DNA of 21,791 bases from a virus: the IMG/VR virus record IMGVR_UViG_3300001848_000268, positions 1 through 21,791 of that record. One strand, 5' to 3'. Positions 7,161 through 21,063 of the stretch are shown in pieces. The notes under the pieces are model-generated. The model did no database searches, was not told where the DNA came from, and saw only the letters and a list, made by a program, of their open reading frames with translations. The position numbers and the translations under genes were made by a program. Each line of letters opens with the position of its first letter. Within the stretch, counting starts at the first letter, position 1.

Positions 7161-7364
7161 ATAAGAAATCTCTACTTTGATTAAATCGATTTCTGTTTTC
7201 TCGTTTAGATTGCTGATGATTTCTTTAGCTCTTACATTATCCTTGAATATAGTTGCTTCATGAGCAGTCCAGGACCAAACAAGAGTTTCTTCTTTTAGAA
7301 TTAAAAATTGTACGGATCCTGATAGATAAGATTTAGATATAACCCATCCTATAGTTTGTGTCAC
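7158..7364 (-). CDS. Small protein of unknown function downstream of uvsE
   Basis: The frame has a TTG at 7373 and a GTG at 7364. I choose the GTG (68 aa, starting MTQTIGWVIS) because it overlaps the uvsE stop by one base (TAGTG), matching the coupling seen elsewhere. The product has a hydrophobic, aromatic first half (VQFLILKEETLVWSW) and a charged second half ending DLIKVEISY, which suggests a compact alpha/beta protein. It is the last gene of the leftward cluster before the terminator. No family recognised. Confidence 0.55.
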   Translation of the reverse strand: MTQTIGWVISKSYLSGSVQFLILKEETLVWSWTAHEATIFKDNVRAKEIISNLNEKTEIDLIKVEISY

Positions 7365-8257
7365 TATTCCCAAAAATCCCTTCTGTATTTCAGAAGAGCC
7401 AATTCCTTAGCTTTTGCTTCCAATTCAACATCACAATCTAGATGCTCTTCTATTTTATTATATATGTAATCAGAATGTGCACGTGGATTGCCGATAGATC
7501 CTTCCCATAGTTTCCGAGAATCAGAGAAATGAAAAAGAGGTTTGTAATCGTGCCACGTAGAAGCGGCCAAAAGAGCAGCTGTCTTTTCTGGAATTTCCTG
7601 AGAGTGAAAAGAGTGATGGAAATAATCAAAGGTTATAGGAGTGCCGATAACATCTGTGATATACTCCAAGATTTGTTCTACTGAGAAACAAGAATCTTTG
7701 TCATCGTTTTCTACAACTAATCTCTTCTGTAGATTGGGCGACAATCGTTCGAAGTTGTCACAGAATCTGTTAGCCACTGCAGGGGAAAAAGAACAACCGA
7801 CGTGAATGTTGATAGGATTCCAATGGGAATCTTCTAATCCGATTAAATCAAAGATTTGAGAATGAATCTCTAGATCTTTGATTGAATTAGAGACTACTGC
7901 TTCTCTTTCGGAGGCGAGCTTAACAAACTGACCAGGATGAGCAGAGAGACGTATTTCTGCATCCTTAGCCAGGATGCCGCATCTAGAAAGTACAGCGCAA
8001 ATAGATTCCCAATCTGGAAGATCGGATAAGGAATACTCACTTGCCCATGGAAACATATCAGAGGAGATCCGAAAAACTTTGACATTATTTTGTGCATTCC
8101 ATTTTAAGATCTTTTCTAGATCTGTTACATTTGCAAGCGCAAGTTGCGAAGCATAAGAAATTCCTTTCTGAAGAAAAGTCGCTTTGCGCATCGTACGATT
8201 TGTAGTGACTCCCTGTTTGCCGAGAGTCAGATTAATGCAGCAATATCCTAGATTCAC
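7364..8257 (-). CDS. uvsE: UV damage endonuclease UvsE/UVDE
   Basis: The 297-aa enzyme would nick DNA 5' of UV photoproducts and other distorting lesions in a repair pathway independent of UvrABC. It has the TIM-barrel metal-site motifs of the family: RISSDMFPW, SAHPGQFV, PINIHVG, VENDDK, TFDYFHH, HFSDSR and HSDYI, and the length is normal. The start is GTG 8257, which shares bases with the preceding stop (GTGA) and has GAGGAA just upstream. T4 uses DenV, an unrelated glycosylase, for the same job. Exposed environmental phages may gain from such a gene. Confidence 0.92.
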   Translation of the reverse strand: MNLGYCCINLTLGKQGVTTNRTMRKATFLQKGISYASQLALANVTDLEKILKWNAQNNVKVFRISSDMFPWASEYSLSDLPDWESICAVLSRCGILAKDAEIRLSAHPGQFVKLASEREAVVSNSIKDLEIHSQIFDLIGLEDSHWNPINIHVGCSFSPAVANRFCDNFERLSPNLQKRLVVENDDKDSCFSVEQILEYITDVIGTPITFDYFHHSFHSQEIPEKTAALLAASTWHDYKPLFHFSDSRKLWEGSIGNPRAHSDYIYNKIEEHLDCDVELEAKAKELALLKYRRDFWE

Positions 8258-11452: not shown

Positions 11453-11548
11453 CCTCCTGTAGTTTAATTGGCAAAACACTGGCCTTATACTCCAGCATCG
11501 GCACCAGATTAGTGCAAATTCCAGGTTCAAGTCCTGGCGGGAGGACCA
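11453..11548 (+). tRNA. tRNA with long variable arm, apparent anticodon TAT
   Basis: A 96-nt cloverleaf: acceptor CCTCCTG (11453-11459) with CGGGAGG (11538-11544, one G-T pair), discriminator A and encoded CCA; D stem GTTT/AAAC with GG in the loop; T arm CCAGG-TTCAAGT-CCTGG (11521-11537). The anticodon arm is CTGGC-CTTATAC-TCCAG with a C/T mismatch at the loop edge, giving anticodon TAT (11486-11488, reading AUA Ile). The 25-nt variable region has its own hairpin, GCAC/GTGC. Long variable arms belong to Leu, Ser and Tyr tRNAs, so isoleucine identity is doubtful; a one-base slip would give ATA (Tyr). The fold is firm, the amino acid is not. Confidence 0.85.
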
Positions 11549-11555
11549 ATTTTAT

Positions 11556-12056
11556 ATGTCAGTCCTAGTTTTAAATTCAGCGTATGAACCAATTCAAACA
11601 GTGTCGCCACGCAAGGCGATTAAACTGATTGTTCGTGGTGTCGCAATTGCTGAAAAATACACAGAAGAAATTTGGAAAAGCGTAGCAACAGAATTCGTTG
11701 TCCCTTCTGTTGTGAGATTGTTAAATTTCTACAAGATCCCCAACCGGATCTACAGACTATCAAAGCGAAACATTTTCGCAAGAGACAACTGGACTTGTCA
11801 GTATTGCAAAACCAAATTGTCAACTTCTAACGGAACATTAGATCACATTGTTCCTCGTTCTAAAGGCGGGGAATCTTCTTGGGAAAATCTCGTGACTGCA
11901 TGTAAGCCATGTAATTCTAGAAAAGGAAACAAAACACCTAATGAAGCTGGAATGCAATTGGCCGTTAAGACAGCCAGATTAAACTACAGAGCAATTCTGA
12001 GAAATCATGGGGCTTCTCGTGGAGAATGGCATGAATATTTGTTCCTGGGTGCTTGA
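11556..12056 (+). CDS. HNH endonuclease
   Basis: The 166-aa protein has an N-terminal segment (MSVLVLNSAYEPIQTVSPRK) typical of a common bacterial and phage HNH family, then a zinc-bound HNH motif: CQYC, LDHIVPRSKGG, ENLVTACKPCNSRKGN. The DH pair, the asparagine and the two CxxC knuckles are all present, so it should be active. It cuts DNA; a homing or host-DNA role cannot be told apart. The only ribosome-site-like sequence is GGAGG (11540-11544), which is part of the tRNA acceptor stem 11 nt before the ATG. Neighbouring tRNAs and the NUMOD3 gene make this a mobile-element-prone area. Confidence 0.88.
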   Translation: MSVLVLNSAYEPIQTVSPRKAIKLIVRGVAIAEKYTEEIWKSVATEFVVPSVVRLLNFYKIPNRIYRLSKRNIFARDNWTCQYCKTKLSTSNGTLDHIVPRSKGGESSWENLVTACKPCNSRKGNKTPNEAGMQLAVKTARLNYRAILRNHGASRGEWHEYLFLGA

Positions 12057-12081
12057 CTTTTAAGGAAGGAAGAGGTATAAT
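12053..12081 (+). promoter_or_regulatory. Promoter of the 56-aa gene
   Basis: TTGACT (12053-12058, overlapping the HNH stop), 17-nt spacer, TATAAT (12076-12081), with ATG at 12087. Only 5 nt separate the -10 from the ATG, so the mRNA would be leaderless. Confidence 0.7.
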
Positions 12082-12086
12082 ATATT

Positions 12087-12257
12087 ATGCGTGGAATGTA
12101 CTTGTGTCGTTTTTATATTAAGAGTCGATTGACGGAGGAAGAAGTTTATGCTTCTTCGCCCTTTCAAGCCGAGAGGATTATTAATGCGAAATATGGAGAC
12201 ACGATCAAATGGTCTGGACCTCCTAATCTTGCACAGAATTCTCATCGGTGGTTATAA
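12087..12257 (+). CDS. 56-aa protein, leaderless
   Basis: The frame encodes MRGMYLCRFYIKSRLTEEEV, then YASSPFQAERIINAKYGDTI and a Trp-rich tail ending NSHRWL. The pattern YASSPFQAERIINAKYGD looks like an alpha/beta unit in which a helix follows 'S-P-x-Q-A', as in small phage proteins that modify tRNA-region neighbours, but no family can be named. A second ATG at 12096 would give 53 aa. Support: near-consensus promoter at fixed distance, intact frame and position. The stop overlaps a TATAAATA box. Confidence 0.6.
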   Translation: MRGMYLCRFYIKSRLTEEEVYASSPFQAERIINAKYGDTIKWSGPPNLAQNSHRWL

Positions 12258-12260
12258 ATA
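12253..12260 (+). promoter_or_regulatory. Late-type promoter before the structured RNA and tRNAs
   Basis: TATAAATA overlaps the stop of the 56-aa gene. Predicted start is near 12266, just ahead of the 7-bp closing stem at 12273. It could express the structured RNA and three tRNAs late. Confidence 0.45.
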
Positions 12261-12265
12261 AATAT

Positions 12266-12376
12266 TGATTTTGACCTCTCGAATAATCTAGTCAACCTTA
12301 CCTAGAGATATCGGATAAAAGACTGAACCTTTGGAGATAAGATCCACCGAAGAGGTCATCCTCAGTTTGCTGAGGA
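12266..12376 (+). ncRNA. Candidate structured RNA ahead of the tRNA cluster
   Basis: GACCTCT (12273-12279) pairs perfectly with AGAGGTC (12351-12357), closing an 85-nt element the size of a tRNA. It is followed by a perfect 7-bp hairpin, TCCTCAG-TTTG-CTGAGGA (12359-12376). Inside, GGAT can pair with ATCC. There is no T-loop motif, no GG D-loop and no CCA, so it is not a normal tRNA. It contains no convincing ORF. It lies between a late-type promoter and tRNA-Thr. It may be a decayed tRNA, a processing signal or a small RNA. Confidence 0.4.
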
Positions 12377-12396
12377 AAAGGAAGAACATTAAATGC

Positions 12397-12470
12397 GCCG
12401 AAATAGTTTAACGGTAAAACGATTGACTTGTAATCATTAAATTCGAGTTCAATTCTCGATTTCGGCTCCA
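12397..12470 (+). tRNA. tRNA-Thr (TGT)
   Basis: Acceptor GCCGAAA/TTTCGGC, discriminator T and encoded CCA; D stem GTTT/AAAC; anticodon loop CTTGTAA giving TGT (reads ACA); T arm TCGAG-TTCAATT-CTCGA. The anticodon stem has one T-T mismatch. Confidence 0.88.
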
Positions 12471-12476
12471 AAATTT

Positions 12477-12550
12477 GCTTTGATGGTGTAATGGCAACAT
12501 TTCTGGCTTCCATCCAGACGTTACGAGTTCGAATCTCGTTCAAAGCTCCA
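12477..12550 (+). tRNA. tRNA-Gly (TCC)
   Basis: Acceptor GCTTTGA/TCAAAGC, discriminator T and encoded CCA; anticodon arm TCTGG-CTTCCAT-CCAGA giving TCC (reads GGA); T arm ACGAG-TTCGAAT-CTCGT. It lies 6 nt after tRNA-Thr. Confidence 0.92.
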
Positions 12551-12555
12551 ATAAT

Positions 12556-12632
12556 CGGGAAGTGGGCCAAAGGTGGGCCGCCTGTTTTGGGAACAGGACA
12601 TCGAGTGAGTTCGATTCTCACCTTCCCGACCA
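12556..12632 (+). tRNA. tRNA-Pro (TGG)
   Basis: Acceptor CGGGAAG/CTTCCCG, discriminator A and encoded CCA; D stem GGCC/GGCC; anticodon arm CCTGT-TTTGGGA-ACAGG giving TGG (reads CCA); T arm GTGAG-TTCGATT-CTCAC. The variable region is about 7 nt, slightly long. Confidence 0.92.
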
Positions 12633-12649
12633 CTTGATTTTCAATTTAT

Positions 12650-12725: not shown

Positions 12726-13202
12726 ATGTCTGATACTATTTATTGGAACGTCGAATCTCTTAACGAATTCTTTAACCTTCCGAATATAATCACCCATATA
12801 GAATTACCAGCAGAAGAAATAGAACTTTCTAAATCAGAATATTGTTGTTTTTGGAAGGGAAAACTCAGAACAGAAGAAGAAAGGAAAGCAATATCTGACA
12901 GACGCATCGGACAGAAGGCTTCGTTGGAAACAAAAAAGAAATTATCTGAATCTAAAACTGGTAACAAGAATTTTATGTATGGTAGAACACATACAGAAGA
13001 AGCACGAAAGAAGATATCAGAAGCTAGGAAAAAATTAAAAGGAACATATACACACACTGAAGAAACAAAAAAGAAGATGTCAGAGGCGCAAAGAGGGCAA
13101 AAACATTCCATGTATGGAAGAAAACACTCAGAAGAGTCTAAGCGGAAAATGAGAGAAGCTGCCGAAAAAAGACGTTTGACATCTATAGATAATATAGTAT
13201 AA
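12726..13202 (+). CDS. NUMOD3-repeat DNA-binding protein without nuclease domain
   Basis: The 158-aa protein has a 50-residue N-terminal region and then a run of basic NUMOD3 modules: RTEEERKAISDRRIGQ, YGRTHTEEARKKISEARK, THTEETKKKMSEAQRG and YGRKHSEESKRKMREAAEK. NUMOD3 repeats are the sequence-specific DNA-binding parts of GIY-YIG and HNH homing endonucleases (such as the T4 Seg proteins). Neither a GIY-YIG nor an HNH motif is present, so this is either a remnant or a stand-alone DNA-binding protein. AGAGGT (about 12713-12718) is the ribosome site. The frame is intact, which argues against simple decay. It sits between the tRNAs and RNase H, a usual landing area for homing genes. Confidence 0.75.
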   Translation: MSDTIYWNVESLNEFFNLPNIITHIELPAEEIELSKSEYCCFWKGKLRTEEERKAISDRRIGQKASLETKKKLSESKTGNKNFMYGRTHTEEARKKISEARKKLKGTYTHTEETKKKMSEAQRGQKHSMYGRKHSEESKRKMREAAEKRRLTSIDNIV

Positions 13203-16983: not shown

Positions 16984-17340
16984 ATGTATACAACAACTGT
17001 TAGAAGTGCGAGGATAACTTACACAAAACTCAACAGACTGTTGTTTGAAGGGAAATTGCCGCCTTCTTCCCAAATTGTTTTTGACATCGGAGCAATTAAT
17101 AAATCCTGGGCCTATTGCGAGAAAATAAAGGATGGAGTAAAGATTAAGTTAGCTCCCAATTACAAGAGCAAACATTTCTTTATTACAATTTTAGCTCATG
17201 AAATGGTCCATGTGTGGGAATATCTTACTTGGGGTAAGATGACACATGGACCTAGATTTTTTGAATTTAGAGAGATCTTCCAAAAACACGGAATAGAATT
17301 AATCGGCGAAGCTGGGTATAATCACGAAGACTTTATTTAA
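16984..17340 (+). CDS. SprT-like zinc metalloprotease domain protein
   Basis: The 118-aa protein has AHEMVHVWEY (H72, E73, H76) and a downstream histidine in THGPRFFEF (H88), the zinc ligands of the SprT/Spartan-like family. Known relatives cleave proteins bound or crosslinked to DNA. Such genes are frequent in T4-like phages near replication functions. It follows the regA stop by one base (TGATATG) and its end overlaps the convergent gene at 17333 by 8 nt, leaving no room for a terminator. The function in phage is unproven. Confidence 0.8.
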   Translation: MYTTTVRSARITYTKLNRLLFEGKLPPSSQIVFDIGAINKSWAYCEKIKDGVKIKLAPNYKSKHFFITILAHEMVHVWEYLTWGKMTHGPRFFEFREIFQKHGIELIGEAGYNHEDFI

Positions 17341-18637
17341 TCATCGTGAATCCGATTCTATTATTCAATGGATATCTGATAGAACTTGGTGATCCGAATT
17401 TAAATTTGGCTTCTTTAAATGGTTTAATGATATATCCGTATTTTTCTTTTCCTAATTTATCTACGTAAATCTGAGAAACAGACAATCGATTAGCAGCTAA
17501 TGTTATTAATCTGGTTGCTCCATTAACATCAGCATTCAACCATTTTACTAACTCTGATGTAATAGGATAATGCAACGATCCCCAATTAGTCATCATAGAC
17601 TTTTCTGTTGGTTTGAATCCTGCTTTACTGTAAAATTCTAATATAGCTTTTTTCTTTGTTCCATTCATATTATATAATATAGATTGTAATGCTTCTTTGG
17701 AAGGAATGTCGTCTGAGACAGAACCGCTATGTGCTTTATATTTAGATAACAATTCTATAAGAGCTAAGTATCCAGGAGTCTTTAAATATTTTGCTGCTTT
17801 TAATGGTCCTTCATATAAAGAATCTCCATTGATTATTTTTATTACAGCTAAAGATCTTTTTTCTCCTGTAGTCAAATCTTCTACTTCTGATAATTTATCT
17901 AATTCGCCGATAAGAGAAGAAATTGTAGGTTTACTTCCTTTATTGGATTTAACTGAAAAATTTTCTATTTCTCCATTAGGATAATTTAAAATAAAATCGA
18001 TAAGAGGAAGATTTGCTTTTGGAAAAGTTACACTATCATAAGCTGGATTGGTAAACAAAAGATATGCCGCTGCGGCGATCTCGCCAAAATCTTTTAAGAT
18101 AATTTTAATATCAACATCTGAAAGAGAAGAAGATATAGTGAAAGTTGGTTCTTCTGCGTTGAATAATTTTCGACAAAATTTCTTCACTTCTTTGTCTATG
18201 GATAATTTTGATAATGCTTTTTCTGTAGCAGTGATCAATTGATCGTGTGTTAATGTCTTATCAGCTAATCCAAAAGTAGCAGGAATTAATTCTTTATCTC
18301 TAACAAACGTAGGAGACTCTGAACCTGCTCTAGATCTTGGTTTATTGATAGATTCAAAGGGAATAAAAAACTTTTTGTTCTCATCAGTTCTTATTGGGTA
18401 TAATGTAGAATTCCCAACTTTCGGTAACTTGTTATAATCGTCTATTTGTAGTGCTACAATTTTGGTCCCTTTTTCCAGGGTTCCTACTTTAACTAAGTCT
18501 TTGTTATAATAACTAGCAATCTTTTTGAGATCAGTTTCAACTTCTTTTCCTTGGAAATATTTTTGCCATTTATATATCCCGGAAGTAGCTGCTTCTGTTA
18601 TTCTTTCTTCTTCTAGATATTTTTTAAACGATAGCAT
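17333..18637 (-). CDS. Putative capsid-targeted protein, nuclease-like core
   Basis: The 434-aa protein starts MLSFKKYLEE, resembling the T4 capsid targeting sequence MKTYQEFIAE, with L8-x-E10 in the place where T4 gp21 protease cuts. The middle has FGEIAAAAYL (E186), LPLIDFIL (D214) and ENFSVKSNKGSKPTISSL (K230), an order compatible with the E...D...(S/E)xK active site of PD-(D/E)XK nucleases. That is a pattern match, not proof. The C-terminal half is Lys/Tyr-rich with GYIIKPFKEAKFKFG. It follows the HAD gene with TAAATG and GGAG. It could instead be a structural head protein. No exact family recalled. Confidence 0.55.
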   Translation of the reverse strand: MLSFKKYLEEERITEAATSGIYKWQKYFQGKEVETDLKKIASYYNKDLVKVGTLEKGTKIVALQIDDYNKLPKVGNSTLYPIRTDENKKFFIPFESINKPRSRAGSESPTFVRDKELIPATFGLADKTLTHDQLITATEKALSKLSIDKEVKKFCRKLFNAEEPTFTISSSLSDVDIKIILKDFGEIAAAAYLLFTNPAYDSVTFPKANLPLIDFILNYPNGEIENFSVKSNKGSKPTISSLIGELDKLSEVEDLTTGEKRSLAVIKIINGDSLYEGPLKAAKYLKTPGYLALIELLSKYKAHSGSVSDDIPSKEALQSILYNMNGTKKKAILEFYSKAGFKPTEKSMMTNWGSLHYPITSELVKWLNADVNGATRLITLAANRLSVSQIYVDKLGKEKYGYIIKPFKEAKFKFGSPSSIRYPLNNRIGFTMIK

Positions 18638-19210
18638 TTATTTCTCCAGGAGATATTTTTTTAATTGATCCAAAGTCTGATCTGTTGTCTCTTCTTCGTG
18701 TTGTATTCCGATCCCGCCTGCGTTTTTCCACTTAGCGATATTGACTCCATAATCATCAACCAGGATATCACCCTTTTTCGCATATTTATATTTATCGTGT
18801 TCGAAGATTGCTTTCACATTTCCTAATCCATGGGCTTCTAACCATTTGGTTTTTCCAGCAATAGATCCTTTCACATCAGATCCTAATGGAGAAGAAAGGA
18901 TCGCAAAAGGAATGTCGTGATCTCTTAGAAAGCGAATTATCTTTTTTCCGCCAGGAAGTTGTGGTAGATCAGCAAAGAATTTCTCCGCACCACCATATTC
19001 TTCGATATCTCTGTCTAACTTTTCTCTATCGTTTATGTTCTGAAGATAAGCCTTAATCTTTACCCAGTCTTCTCTTGCTTCTTTTATTTCGCCTTTTTCT
19101 TTTAAGATAGCATACCAGGCACCAAAGAAATCACAGAGTACACCATCCATGTCAACGTACACCATGGGTTTCTTTTTTGCTTCTGTTAAGAATTGGGAGT
19201 AGGATAGCAT
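18638..19210 (-). CDS. HAD-family 5'-nucleotidase/phosphatase with capsid-targeting-like N-terminus
   Basis: The 190-aa protein has the HAD motifs in order: VYVDMDGVLCDF (D20, D22), AILSSPLGSD, KTKWLEAHG and DILVDDYGVNIAKWKNAGG. It resembles 5'(3')-deoxyribonucleotidases and related phosphatases. Before the catalytic domain lies MLSYSQFLTE|AKKKP, which matches the T4 internal protein leader MKTYQEFIAE|A in length and in the L-x-E cut site at residues 8-10. The enzyme may therefore be packed into the head and injected with the DNA. Its ATG overlaps the tail tube stop as TAATG. Confidence 0.8.
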   Translation of the reverse strand: MLSYSQFLTEAKKKPMVYVDMDGVLCDFFGAWYAILKEKGEIKEAREDWVKIKAYLQNINDREKLDRDIEEYGGAEKFFADLPQLPGGKKIIRFLRDHDIPFAILSSPLGSDVKGSIAGKTKWLEAHGLGNVKAIFEHDKYKYAKKGDILVDDYGVNIAKWKNAGGIGIQHEEETTDQTLDQLKKYLLEK

Positions 19211-19710
19211 TATAGAGCCTCGACTGTGAAATAAGAGTAATTAAATGTCACGTCCGATGTAATTGTGACGGCTTCTGTTGCTTGCGAATCATAAGTAAGT
19301 GTTCCGATATTTGTTGGCCAACAATCCACAAAAGTAACTTTTACTAATGGATTATATTTGTTAGAAAGAATTATCAGCTGTCCGTCGGAGTATTGATTTT
19401 TGTTAACAGCCTTGTAATTCTTATAATCTTCGGTGTCAGTTGTTCTACCAATCCCCTTTATCCAGTTGTATAATTCTAAATAGTTTGCTAGATTTTCCTG
19501 GACAATATAGTTAAGAGTAAGTGGTTCAAAGTTTAGCTTATCTCCAGGAATAGGTCTGTCTCTAAATGGAGTTGGCTGCAATATTTGGTTTAAAGAAACT
19601 GCTGGTAGGGAAACAGAATAAGAAGTAAAAGCGACGTTTGGCAACTTGTCGAACGTCAATTTAAATAAAGGTTGTAATGAACGATCCGTAGATCCTGGCG
19701 TAAATGACAT
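19210..19710 (-). CDS. Tail tube protein, T4 gp19-like family
   Basis: The 166-aa protein shows the fold pattern of gp19: LFKLTFDKLPNVAFTSYSV, SLPAVSL, PTPFRDRPIPGDKLNFEPL (the 'G-D' loop), LYNWIKGIG, then VTFVDCWPTNIGTLTYDS and a last strand VTFNYSYF. T4 gp19 (163 aa) has GLWPTNVGEL at the matching place. It polymerises as the inner tube through which DNA passes, or it caps or starts that tube at the baseplate; a paralogous baseplate role cannot be excluded. It sits between the HAD and cupin-like genes in the late block. Confidence 0.75.
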   Translation of the reverse strand: MSFTPGSTDRSLQPLFKLTFDKLPNVAFTSYSVSLPAVSLNQILQPTPFRDRPIPGDKLNFEPLTLNYIVQENLANYLELYNWIKGIGRTTDTEDYKNYKAVNKNQYSDGQLIILSNKYNPLVKVTFVDCWPTNIGTLTYDSQATEAVTITSDVTFNYSYFTVEAL

Positions 19711-19711
19711 T

Positions 19712-19981
19712 TTATTCTAACTCTCTTATCTTTAAGACTAGTTTGTTCTCGCCTCTCCAAATTCTATGAAAAACCATACCAGGTATGTAACGAATGTCGT
19801 TCGCTTTAAGTTCAACTGGTAGCTCATTATCGTACTGGAACTTCCATCCTTTTCCCTCGATAACAGTTACATTTCTTGTTTTATAATCTCTATGCCAAAC
19901 CAATTCTGATTCTTCCACTTCAGGAGAAAATTCTCTTAAGAAAACTCCTTTACCTATATTAATATCATGATATGTTACCAA
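19712..19981 (-). CDS. Small cupin-like protein
   Basis: The 89-aa protein reads as a short double-strand barrel: ELVWHRDYKTRNVTVIEGKG then WKFQYDNELPVELKANDIRYIPGMVFHRIWRG and LVLKIRELE. The H-R-D, E-G-x-G-W and IPGMVFHR elements follow cupin motif spacing, with possible metal ligands H30 and H72. Similar proteins occur in marine T4-like phages. The frame begins at TTG 19981, overlapping the upstream gene by 7 nt, with GGAGG about 10 nt before it; no nearby ATG exists. Function unknown. Confidence 0.65.
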   Translation of the reverse strand: MVTYHDINIGKGVFLREFSPEVEESELVWHRDYKTRNVTVIEGKGWKFQYDNELPVELKANDIRYIPGMVFHRIWRGENKLVLKIRELE

Positions 19982-20505
19982 AAGAAATTACCTCCACCGG
20001 ACAACCCCAAAGACTTTGCATAACGAGGCAAATTACAAGACCAGTATCCGGGAGTTGTTCTATCCTTTTTTTCTTGACACTTGTGTCTTGCCACAAAAGA
20101 CTTTCTAGCTTCAGGATCTGAGATTTTTTCCTTTAACCCAGATGTATCCCCGAATGCAACCTTAATGATATTCCCGCTGTTGTTCTTTACATACACGTAA
20201 TATTTCTTGGGTCCGCCTCGCTTTGGCTTTCCTAATTCAACTTCTTTTCCATGGTATTCTGCTTCAGCTAAAAATGGAAAATCTAGAGGAACTTCTTCTC
20301 CCTCGTAAATCCCAAATTTCCCAATATCAGTAGCCAAGATTTCTCTGTCCCCTTCGGAAAGATCAAGGGATTCTTGTAACTCCCTCGCCTCGTTAATTAA
20401 ATCAAAGTAACCCTGAGATCCATATCTGAATACAGATTCAGAAAGAGGAATCTTGTTCTCTAGATGATACTCTAATGACTTGGAAAATTGGGAAAAAGAT
20501 TTCAT
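19975..20505 (-). CDS. T4-like phage late-block protein of unknown function
   Basis: The 176-aa protein starts MKSFSQFSKS, a weaker version of the capsid-targeting-like leader. The C-terminal half carries a distinctive module: EYHGKEVELGKPKRGGPKKY, YVYVKNNSGNIIKVAFGD, DPEARKSFVARHKCQEKKD and TPGYWSCNLPRYAKSLGLSG. This 'KPxRGGPKKYxVYVKN..G..xKVxFGD...R.SF.ARH.C...K..T.GYWSC' block is familiar from many T4-like phage proteins, but the function is not known. The two cysteines and the basic helix suggest zinc or DNA binding. It follows the 41-aa gene by TAATATG. Confidence 0.7.
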   Translation of the reverse strand: MKSFSQFSKSLEYHLENKIPLSESVFRYGSQGYFDLINEARELQESLDLSEGDREILATDIGKFGIYEGEEVPLDFPFLAEAEYHGKEVELGKPKRGGPKKYYVYVKNNSGNIIKVAFGDTSGLKEKISDPEARKSFVARHKCQEKKDRTTPGYWSCNLPRYAKSLGLSGGGNFFW

Positions 20506-20506
20506 A

Positions 20507-20632
20507 TTATTTCTTCTTTTTGGTTTTAGGTTCTTCTTCTTTTTTTTCTTCTATCTTTTCTTCTTTTTTCTCTTCTGGAGAAACCCCATATTTCTGGTCC
20601 AGATATTGTTTAGCTCTTTCTACGTTGTTCAT
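20507..20632 (-). CDS. 41-aa highly charged Lys/Glu protein
   Basis: The frame encodes MNNVERAKQYLDQKYGVSPE and then a run of Lys and Glu to KTKKKK. Its ATG shares one base with the stop of the 138-aa gene (TAATG), and its stop is one base from the next ATG (TAATATG), so it sits exactly between two coupled genes. Small, very charged proteins such as T4 gp67 build the prohead core; this could be a counterpart, but the similarity is only in composition. The poly-purine stretch explains an apparent Phe-rich frame on the other strand. Confidence 0.6.
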   Translation of the reverse strand: MNNVERAKQYLDQKYGVSPEEKKEEKIEEKKEEEPKTKKKK

Positions 20633-21048
20633 TATTTTTCCTTAGATTCCCAGGCATTGCAAGATCTTAACTCATCAGCAATAAACTTATGATGAGTACA
20701 GTACGCCATTCTTCCCGCATGGGCATTCCATCCAGTTAAATTCTGCATGCCTTGAATTATAAATAAAGTCTGTCCATCTTTTACACAATTCTGAGTCTTG
20801 GCTGTCTCATCAAAATATTCACAGGCAGAACAGATTCTGCCTCTAGCCACTCCTGGTTCGACTTTCCAGACTTGGGCCTTTTCCTCCCAAAAAGTCACAT
20901 TAGGAACAGTAGGATCCATTGGACCATAAGCCTTTTTCTCGTTATGAATGGCTTCGCCTTTATTCTGGATGTGCTCTAGATAATCCTGAGTGGCTACGGG
21001 ACAACCTTTAATCTTTTCTTCCTGAAGGAAATCTTTGAAGTTTTTCAT
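20632..21048 (-). CDS. T4-like phage late-block protein with capsid-targeting-like N-terminus
   Basis: The 138-aa protein starts MKNFKDFLQE|E, matching the T4 leader MKTYQEFIAE with an L-x-E cut site. It then has GCPVATQDYLEHIQNKGEAI, AYGPMDPTVPNVTFWEEKA, ARGRICSACEYFDET and YCTHHKFIADELRSCNAW. The CPVATQD, GPxDPxxPNxxFWxxKA and C-x2-C...C...C...H pattern recurs in T4-like phages of marine bacteria, with unknown function, and looks like a metal-binding cysteine/histidine domain. A late TATAAATA box lies just before its ATG, so the message would begin at or very near the start codon. First gene of the late block. Confidence 0.75.
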   Translation of the reverse strand: MKNFKDFLQEEKIKGCPVATQDYLEHIQNKGEAIHNEKKAYGPMDPTVPNVTFWEEKAQVWKVEPGVARGRICSACEYFDETAKTQNCVKDGQTLFIIQGMQNLTGWNAHAGRMAYCTHHKFIADELRSCNAWESKEK

Positions 21049-21055
21049 ATAATAT

Positions 21056-21063
21056 TATTTATA
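21056..21063 (-). promoter_or_regulatory. T4-type late promoter of the right-hand block
   Basis: TATAAATA on the minus strand (21063 to 21056), then 7 nt to ATG 21048. It overlaps the stop codon of the RuvC-like gene. It could drive the whole leftward block down to 17333, starting with a nearly leaderless message. Confidence 0.55.

Follow-up and report, generated by a model that had tools for sequence, protein, structure and literature searches.

A T4-type capsid-targeting decapeptide marks candidate head cargo, including a phosphatase, in an uncultured T4-like phage and its relatives

Four minus-strand genes at 17333-21048 of a 21.8 kb fragment of an uncultured T4-like phage (IMG/VR record IMGVR_UViG_3300001848_000268, positions 1 to 21,791; hereafter the window) begin with a decapeptide laid out like the capsid-targeting sequence (CTS) of the T4 internal proteins (IPs). 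Our findings indicate that proteins tagged in this way, enzymes among them, are very probably loaded into the prohead as cargo and delivered together with the DNA. A reading made from the sequence alone (the sequence-only reading) had proposed as much, and the proposal is supported by the use of the same positions as in T4 IPIII, by the presence of the gp21-type prohead protease in relatives and by the prediction of virion proteins in the cyanophage S-CREM2. The T4 capsid-targeting sequence was reportedly described by Mullaney and Black in 1996.

The full layout (aromatic residues at 4 and 7, L8 and E10) is present in proteins of 138, 190 and 434 amino acids (aa), which also contain the gp21 cleavage consensus (L/I)xE at residues 8-10, while in a fourth protein, of 176 aa, the match is confined to the aromatic residues 4 and 7 and the processing residues 8 and 10 are absent. 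A decapeptide with aromatic residues at 4 and 7 is thus common to all four, and the N-termini lie where the sequence-only reading had placed them, with L-x-E exact in three and the fourth looser. In this regard, residues 4 and 7 of T4 IPIII govern targeting and residues 8 and 10 processing (PMC9026906; here and below, papers given by PMC number are cited from excerpts of their text), and the positions conserved in the window tags are exactly these four. The tagged genes and the untagged ones interspersed among them are as follows, a slash marking a gp21-type cleavage site.

20632..21048, minus strand: 138-aa protein, MKNFKDFLQE/EK (open reading frame, ORF; start 21048; tag codons 21019-21048)
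20507..20632, minus strand: untagged 41-aa Lys/Glu-rich ORF separating the 138-aa and 176-aa genes (sequence reading)
19975..20505, minus strand: 176-aa protein, phrog_7595 (unknown function), MKSFSQFSKS (ORF and PHROGs match; start 20505)
20260..20271, minus strand: LAE/A at residues 79-82 of the 176-aa protein, gp21-type site (family alignment)
19712..19981, minus strand: untagged cupin-like 89-aa protein (weak Pfam match to Cupin_2, E 0.0026, under the cut-off)
19210..19710, minus strand: untagged gp19/tail-tube-like 166-aa protein (phrog_45 tail tube, E 2.7e-37)
18638..19210, minus strand: 190-aa NT5C-type HAD phosphatase, MLSYSQFLTE/AK (PF06941; start 19210; tag codons 19181-19210)
17333..18637, minus strand: 434-aa protein, MLSFKKYLEE (ORF; start 18637; tag codons 18608-18637)
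17948..18082, minus strand: PD-(D/E)XK-like residue pattern in the 434-aa protein, E186 ... D214 ... S228-x-K230 (alignment of relatives)

The sequence-only reading had suggested a motif search across the relatives of the phage, and in related loci, which had been collected by similarity, the strict motif M..[FY]..[FY][LIVM].E proved strongly enriched at gene starts: 67 of 2,444 distinct genes begin with it, whereas it follows none of 8,669 methionines at internal positions (p = 4e-45). The ORF caller was simple and start codons were permitted within the first codons, so that some called starts may be wrong. The tagged set comprises about 26 unrelated families, whose mean between-family identity is 44% at residues 2-10 and 6% at residues 16-45. 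In addition, A, G or S occupies residue 11, a position outside the selection motif, in 32 of 59 cases against a background of 20% (p = 1e-8), the residue type that follows the sites of T4 IPII and IPIII and of the S-CREM2 capsid protein. When residues 2-10 are scored with a profile that was trained on the tags of other phages, those of the window excluded, the four tagged genes come out at the top of the 45 window ORFs (21.5, 14.5, 13.9 and 6.0 bits, the next ORF scoring -0.6), the 138-aa protein being second; the identical top four had already come out of a profile built from T4 and cyanophage proteins. Among 5,004 internal methionines, those scoring as high number none for the 138-aa and 190-aa proteins, one for the 176-aa protein and two for the 434-aa protein.

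The tag is also concentrated in one part of the genome. Across five long relatives the full motif is carried by 11 of the 95 genes between gp41 and gp61 versus 1 of 939 elsewhere (p = 2.5e-11), the lone outside match being a chance in-frame one at codon 17 of UvsW in C48C1. That match, together with the shortness of the decapeptide, could be taken to mean that short AT-rich N-termini resemble one another by chance or composition; however, the empty set of 8,669 internal methionines, the absence of the strict motif from the 144 gene starts of two T4-unrelated phages (lambda and HTVC010P) and the correct ranking of S-CREM2 and T4 genes refute this explanation, to which we give practically no weight.

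Applied to the 283 ORFs of T4, the profile places gene 61.1, ipIII, ipII and ipI at ranks 1 to 4. Gene 61.1 (NC_000866 18966-19130; L327), which is uncharacterised, starts with MKTFKEFIKE, the best CTS match of T4, and adjoins gp61, one edge of the position held by the cargo block in marine relatives. The T4 IPs share with the window proteins the ten-residue N-terminal layout with aromatic residues at 4 and 7, as well as I or L at 8 and E10 in IPII and IPIII, and in both phages one tag fronts unrelated mature domains; IPI, which lacks LxE at 8-10, shows the half-pattern seen in the 176-aa protein. The systems differ in that none of the mature domains of the window is known to resemble the T4 IPs, that the window cargo includes a clear enzyme domain, and that ipI-III of T4 map close to genes e and 57, whereas the tagged genes of the relatives cluster between gp41 and gp61.

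These comparisons bear on the idea that the N-terminal helix serves for docking to a host protein or to another phage structure, for example the tail or baseplate, and merely resembles the T4 CTS. The gene order would fit it, since the gp19-like tail-tube gene directly precedes two tagged genes and its stop codon is overlapped by the start of the 190-aa gene (TAATG). Yet constraint falls on the positions mapped in T4 IPIII, residue 11 suits a protease site, the motif recovers the T4 IPs and the tail-tube gene itself is untagged, all of which render a docking role quite improbable.

The prediction of head cargo agrees with virion proteomics in cyanophages. Mass spectrometry detected 52 of the 219 ORFs of S-CREM2 in virions (PMC10665884), presence being taken here as given in published tables. 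The S-CREM2 N-termini had been seen before the profile was built; its training sequences, all tags of the uncultured-phage type, came from other phages, and the regular expression from other phages and the published T4 residues. The top five of the 219 ORFs, all of them detected in virions, are gp154 (cytidylyltransferase, MKNFSSFLTE), gp6 (S-adenosylmethionine (SAM, S-AdoMet) hydrolase, MKDFDSFLEE), gp14 (kinase, MKRFDAFLTE), gp136 (MQTFSMFFSE) and gp13 (MKDLHSFLTE), with a marked gap between the fifth score (6.9) and the sixth (0.4). The overlap with the virion set has P = 6.5e-4 overall and 3e-5 among proteins without an assigned structural role. From residue 11 onwards gp154 reads ADEKQQQAPK, gp6 FDRDQESLEESSLSR and gp136 DAGDK, and the major capsid protein has LLTE/AP at residue 56, the sequence after the site reading APTQ. 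A looser motif, with only the aromatic-type residues 4 and 7 and a shifted start permitted, did not separate the S-CREM2 virion proteins (p = 0.23), and LxE therefore carries much of the power of the motif.

A relaxed motif within the first 30 residues also picks up gp12 of S-CREM2, which was detected. This protein (OR473000 7704-10313; L164), annotated as a Cas9-like nuclease, has RFASFMAEA at about residues 18-26 and gave no Pfam match at E <= 0.01.

Full tags precede the cytidylyltransferase of S-CREM2, Syn9 and S-SM2, and the S-SZBM1 enzyme has a version of nine residues; the cytidylyltransferase was detected in virions of S-CREM2 (PMC10665884), S-SZBM1 (PMC9146016) and S-SM1 (PMC3037559). 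The SAM hydrolase/lyase, kinase and cytidylyltransferase of S-CREM2 are thus both found in virions and tagged, the tag being common to them and the window proteins; the excerpts of the virion papers do not tie virion presence to any tag (PMC10665884, PMC9146016), and the S-CREM2 authors left carry-over possible (PMC10665884).

Processing of the tag calls for a gp21-type protease, which the sequence-only reading expected in the genome. Its presence was borne out in the relatives, not in the window, which is a fragment: PF03420 was found in HTVC008M, Melnitz-1, C48C1, Flavobacterium phage immuto, G001-G005 and several shorter contigs, with T4 and both cyanophages as positive controls for the profile search. 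All six relatives fetched near-complete (W01, W03, W04, G001, G002 and G004) have the protease, as do G019 and G024 (72% and 56% identity, respectively, to the window in gp44), and every searched record above 100 kb except G010, which was reached via a phosphatase homologue. In G019 the capsid-like gene after gp21 contains LAE/ and ITE/ sites near residues 42 and 49.

The claim that one tagged protein is a phosphatase holds: the 190-aa protein is an NT5C-type HAD enzyme, matching PF06941 with 59.9 bits against a cut-off of 24.8 (E 3.7e-16) and reading DMDGVLCDF at the DxDG nucleophile motif. From residue 15 it aligns with residues 4-9 onward of solved 5'(3')-deoxyribonucleotidases, and its tag is therefore an added leader. 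Freshwater HAD homologues (L087-L094) often start with MKIxELLE.

The finding of such an enzyme matters for a second alternative, in which the tagged proteins are components of the prohead core that gp21 cuts in the course of head assembly, with no injected action in the host. The T4 tag does bind the core (PMC9026906), and several of the tagged families consist of small, basic proteins, a character also possible for core proteins. However, the tag is also borne by enzymes with no obvious role in assembly (the NT5C phosphatase, the S-AdoMet lyase and the cytidylyltransferase), and T4 IPI and IPIII exert their effects inside the host (PMC9391042, PMC3012670). Moreover, the tagged gene varies between sister lineages, as expected of accessory cargo: in two sister contigs (L006, L007) the tagged phosphatase still adjoins the same tube-like gene, and other tagged genes replace the 434-aa gene. 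Taken together, these observations make a core-only role unlikely, and we favor injected cargo.

The description of the 434-aa protein as nuclease-like has weak support. E186, D214 and K230 do not vary across 34 aligned relatives, and the predicted order of elements in its AlphaFold2 model (helix-strand-strand-strand-helix) would fit a PD-(D/E)XK core; no significant fold match was obtained, as Foldseek against the PDB gave none at E <= 0.001 (top EcoO109I, E 0.18), a PDB profile search returned no credible match, nothing in Pfam, PHROGs, NCBIfam or PADLOC rose above the cut-off, and the significant BFVD matches are all uncharacterised or unnamed proteins. The model has a helix at residues 4-10, is mostly of very low confidence to residue 56 (very low throughout residues 11-51) and is confident from about residue 110. 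A second gp21-type site, ITE/A, lies at residues 13-16. Among the 76 relatives of this family many have a tag-like start, and some freshwater ones lack the entire first 100 residues.

In the 176-aa family, F or Y at residue 4 and F, Y or H at residue 7 are kept in many members, and E81 is nearly invariant within an LxE/A-like junction directly preceding the conserved C-terminal domain. For structure modelling of this family, proteins of annotated records were left out; the AlphaFold2 model of the 176-aa protein puts LAE/A in a low-confidence linker, and Foldseek found no PDB match at E <= 0.001. We infer that the cleavage site of this protein has moved to LAE/A at E81. The 138-aa protein is Cys-rich, and its homologues, annotated 'high potential iron-sulfur protein' (HiPIP), align only from query residue 15 or later; assignment as a HiPIP was rejected as unproven, as it rested on homologue annotation with no Pfam or NCBIfam match.

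These observations can be combined in a model. The F or Y residues at positions 4 and 7 of the 138-, 190- and 434-aa proteins would bind the prohead core, and a gp21-type prohead protease would then cut at L8-x-E10; the freed enzyme or effector would remain in the head with the DNA and enter the next host alongside it. The same aromatic pair could recruit the 176-aa protein, with a later cut at LAE/A (E81) that would free its C-terminal domain. In the host the proteins may plausibly have anti-restriction or metabolic functions, given the analogies offered by T4 IPI (PMC3012670) and by the S-AdoMet lyase domain in gp6 of S-CREM2.

Several points weigh against this model. The phage is known from a sequence fragment, without a virion, and PF03420 was not found in the 21.8 kb window, gp21 lying outside the fragment; because of this, packaging, cleavage and injection of the four proteins, like their function in the host, are what we infer here. 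The tag of the 176-aa protein is without processing residues, and in two window tags (LQE/E and LEE/E) the cut site is followed by Glu, which is less usual. The full motif is absent from HTVC008M and from every called start in G004, and the tag is therefore not universal. As for the proteomes, detection in CsCl-purified virions proves neither internal location nor cleavage, according to the S-CREM2 authors (PMC10665884), and the strongly tagged S-SZBM1_191 and S-SZBM1_192 are not named among the detected proteins in the excerpts of PMC9146016.

Further tagged genes were seen in other contigs. Five stand in a row at L038:4501-7647 (MISFKEYLSE, MISFKSFISE, MISFKNYLSE, MISFREYLEE and MITFKEYLDE), and at L084:6135-7622 a tagged protein joins a cytidylyltransferase-like domain to a Zeta-toxin/AAA kinase domain. 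Several proteins of Flavobacterium phage immuto (L002:10992-12057 and 19882-20352) have another N-terminal leader, MKKSELVKLIKEEL or MKKSQLREIIRKEL, which, judged from its sequence, is possibly an analogous tag in another gp21-bearing lineage.

With respect to the window as a whole, reading of its ORFs places T4-type replication genes on the plus strand (gp61-like primase, RNase H, clamp, clamp loader and RegA), and on the minus strand the genes that come downstream of one resembling RuvC are, in order, 138-aa, 41-aa ORF, 176-aa, cupin-like, gp19/tail-tube-like, 190-aa and 434-aa. The 'late' label that the block genes had been given was not borne out, as TATAAATA-like late-promoter boxes number 56 in the window against 47 expected and are not enriched; one exact TATAAATA box at 21056-21063, immediately upstream of the 138-aa start, is too near the ATG for interpretation. 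The 15.2 kb record IMGVR_UViG_3300001847_000191 (L005 / L085) encodes the four block proteins and a clamp-loader subunit, all 100% identical, and judged by this identity it is the same or a nearly identical virus. The window also has four tRNA genes at 11453-12632, Ile(tat), Thr(tgt), Gly(tcc) and Pro(tgg); a minus-strand ORF at 12298-12633, which overlaps the three-tRNA cluster, is probably spurious. A UvdE-type UV endonuclease gene lies at 7364-8257 on the minus strand (PF03851, E 3.8e-49). A protein with two NUMOD3 stretches (12726-13202, adjoining RNase H) and an HNH endonuclease near the tRNAs (11556-12056) are likely mobile endonucleases.

Head loading by an N-terminal signal is known from other phages. 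The signal of P1 DarB suffices for loading a reporter into the head and its cargo reaches the host, as proposed for the tagged proteins, but it lies within 30 residues, shows no consensus among Dar proteins and, in the excerpts of PMC9024508, is not reported as a T4-type decapeptide. In the giant phage SPN3US a gp21-like protease likewise removes N-terminal propeptides of ejection proteins after Glu; there, however, several propeptides exceed 100 residues, and one alone, of 20 residues, is of T4-CTS size (PMC5694885). The T4 review already suggests that the CTS may be a general T4-like route of protein uptake into the head (PMC9026906). Within the open-access papers searched, subscription journals being outside the search, none with the phrase 'capsid targeting sequence' concerned, judged by its title, marine or uncultured phages, and the T4 review was the only text with both 'capsid targeting' and 'cyanophage'.

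In line with these findings, the decapeptide probably serves as a cargo code throughout phages that have a gp21-type protease. The profile would then read from sequence the proteins that marine and freshwater T4-like phages bring into the host, enzymes of the gp41-gp61 island included, and would flag T4 gene 61.1 as one more internal protein. The proteins that phages inject have usually been learnt one virion after another, whereas the ten-residue tag, known in T4 for decades, predicts virion cargo in uncultured phages. The tag also picks out enzymes in the virions of related cyanophages, and therefore injected proteins may be readable from sequence. It would supply a mechanism for the enzymes recurrently detected in cyanophage virions, and it provides a testable list of candidate injected effectors that includes phosphatases, cytidylyltransferases, a SAM lyase, a Zeta-toxin-like kinase and many unknowns.

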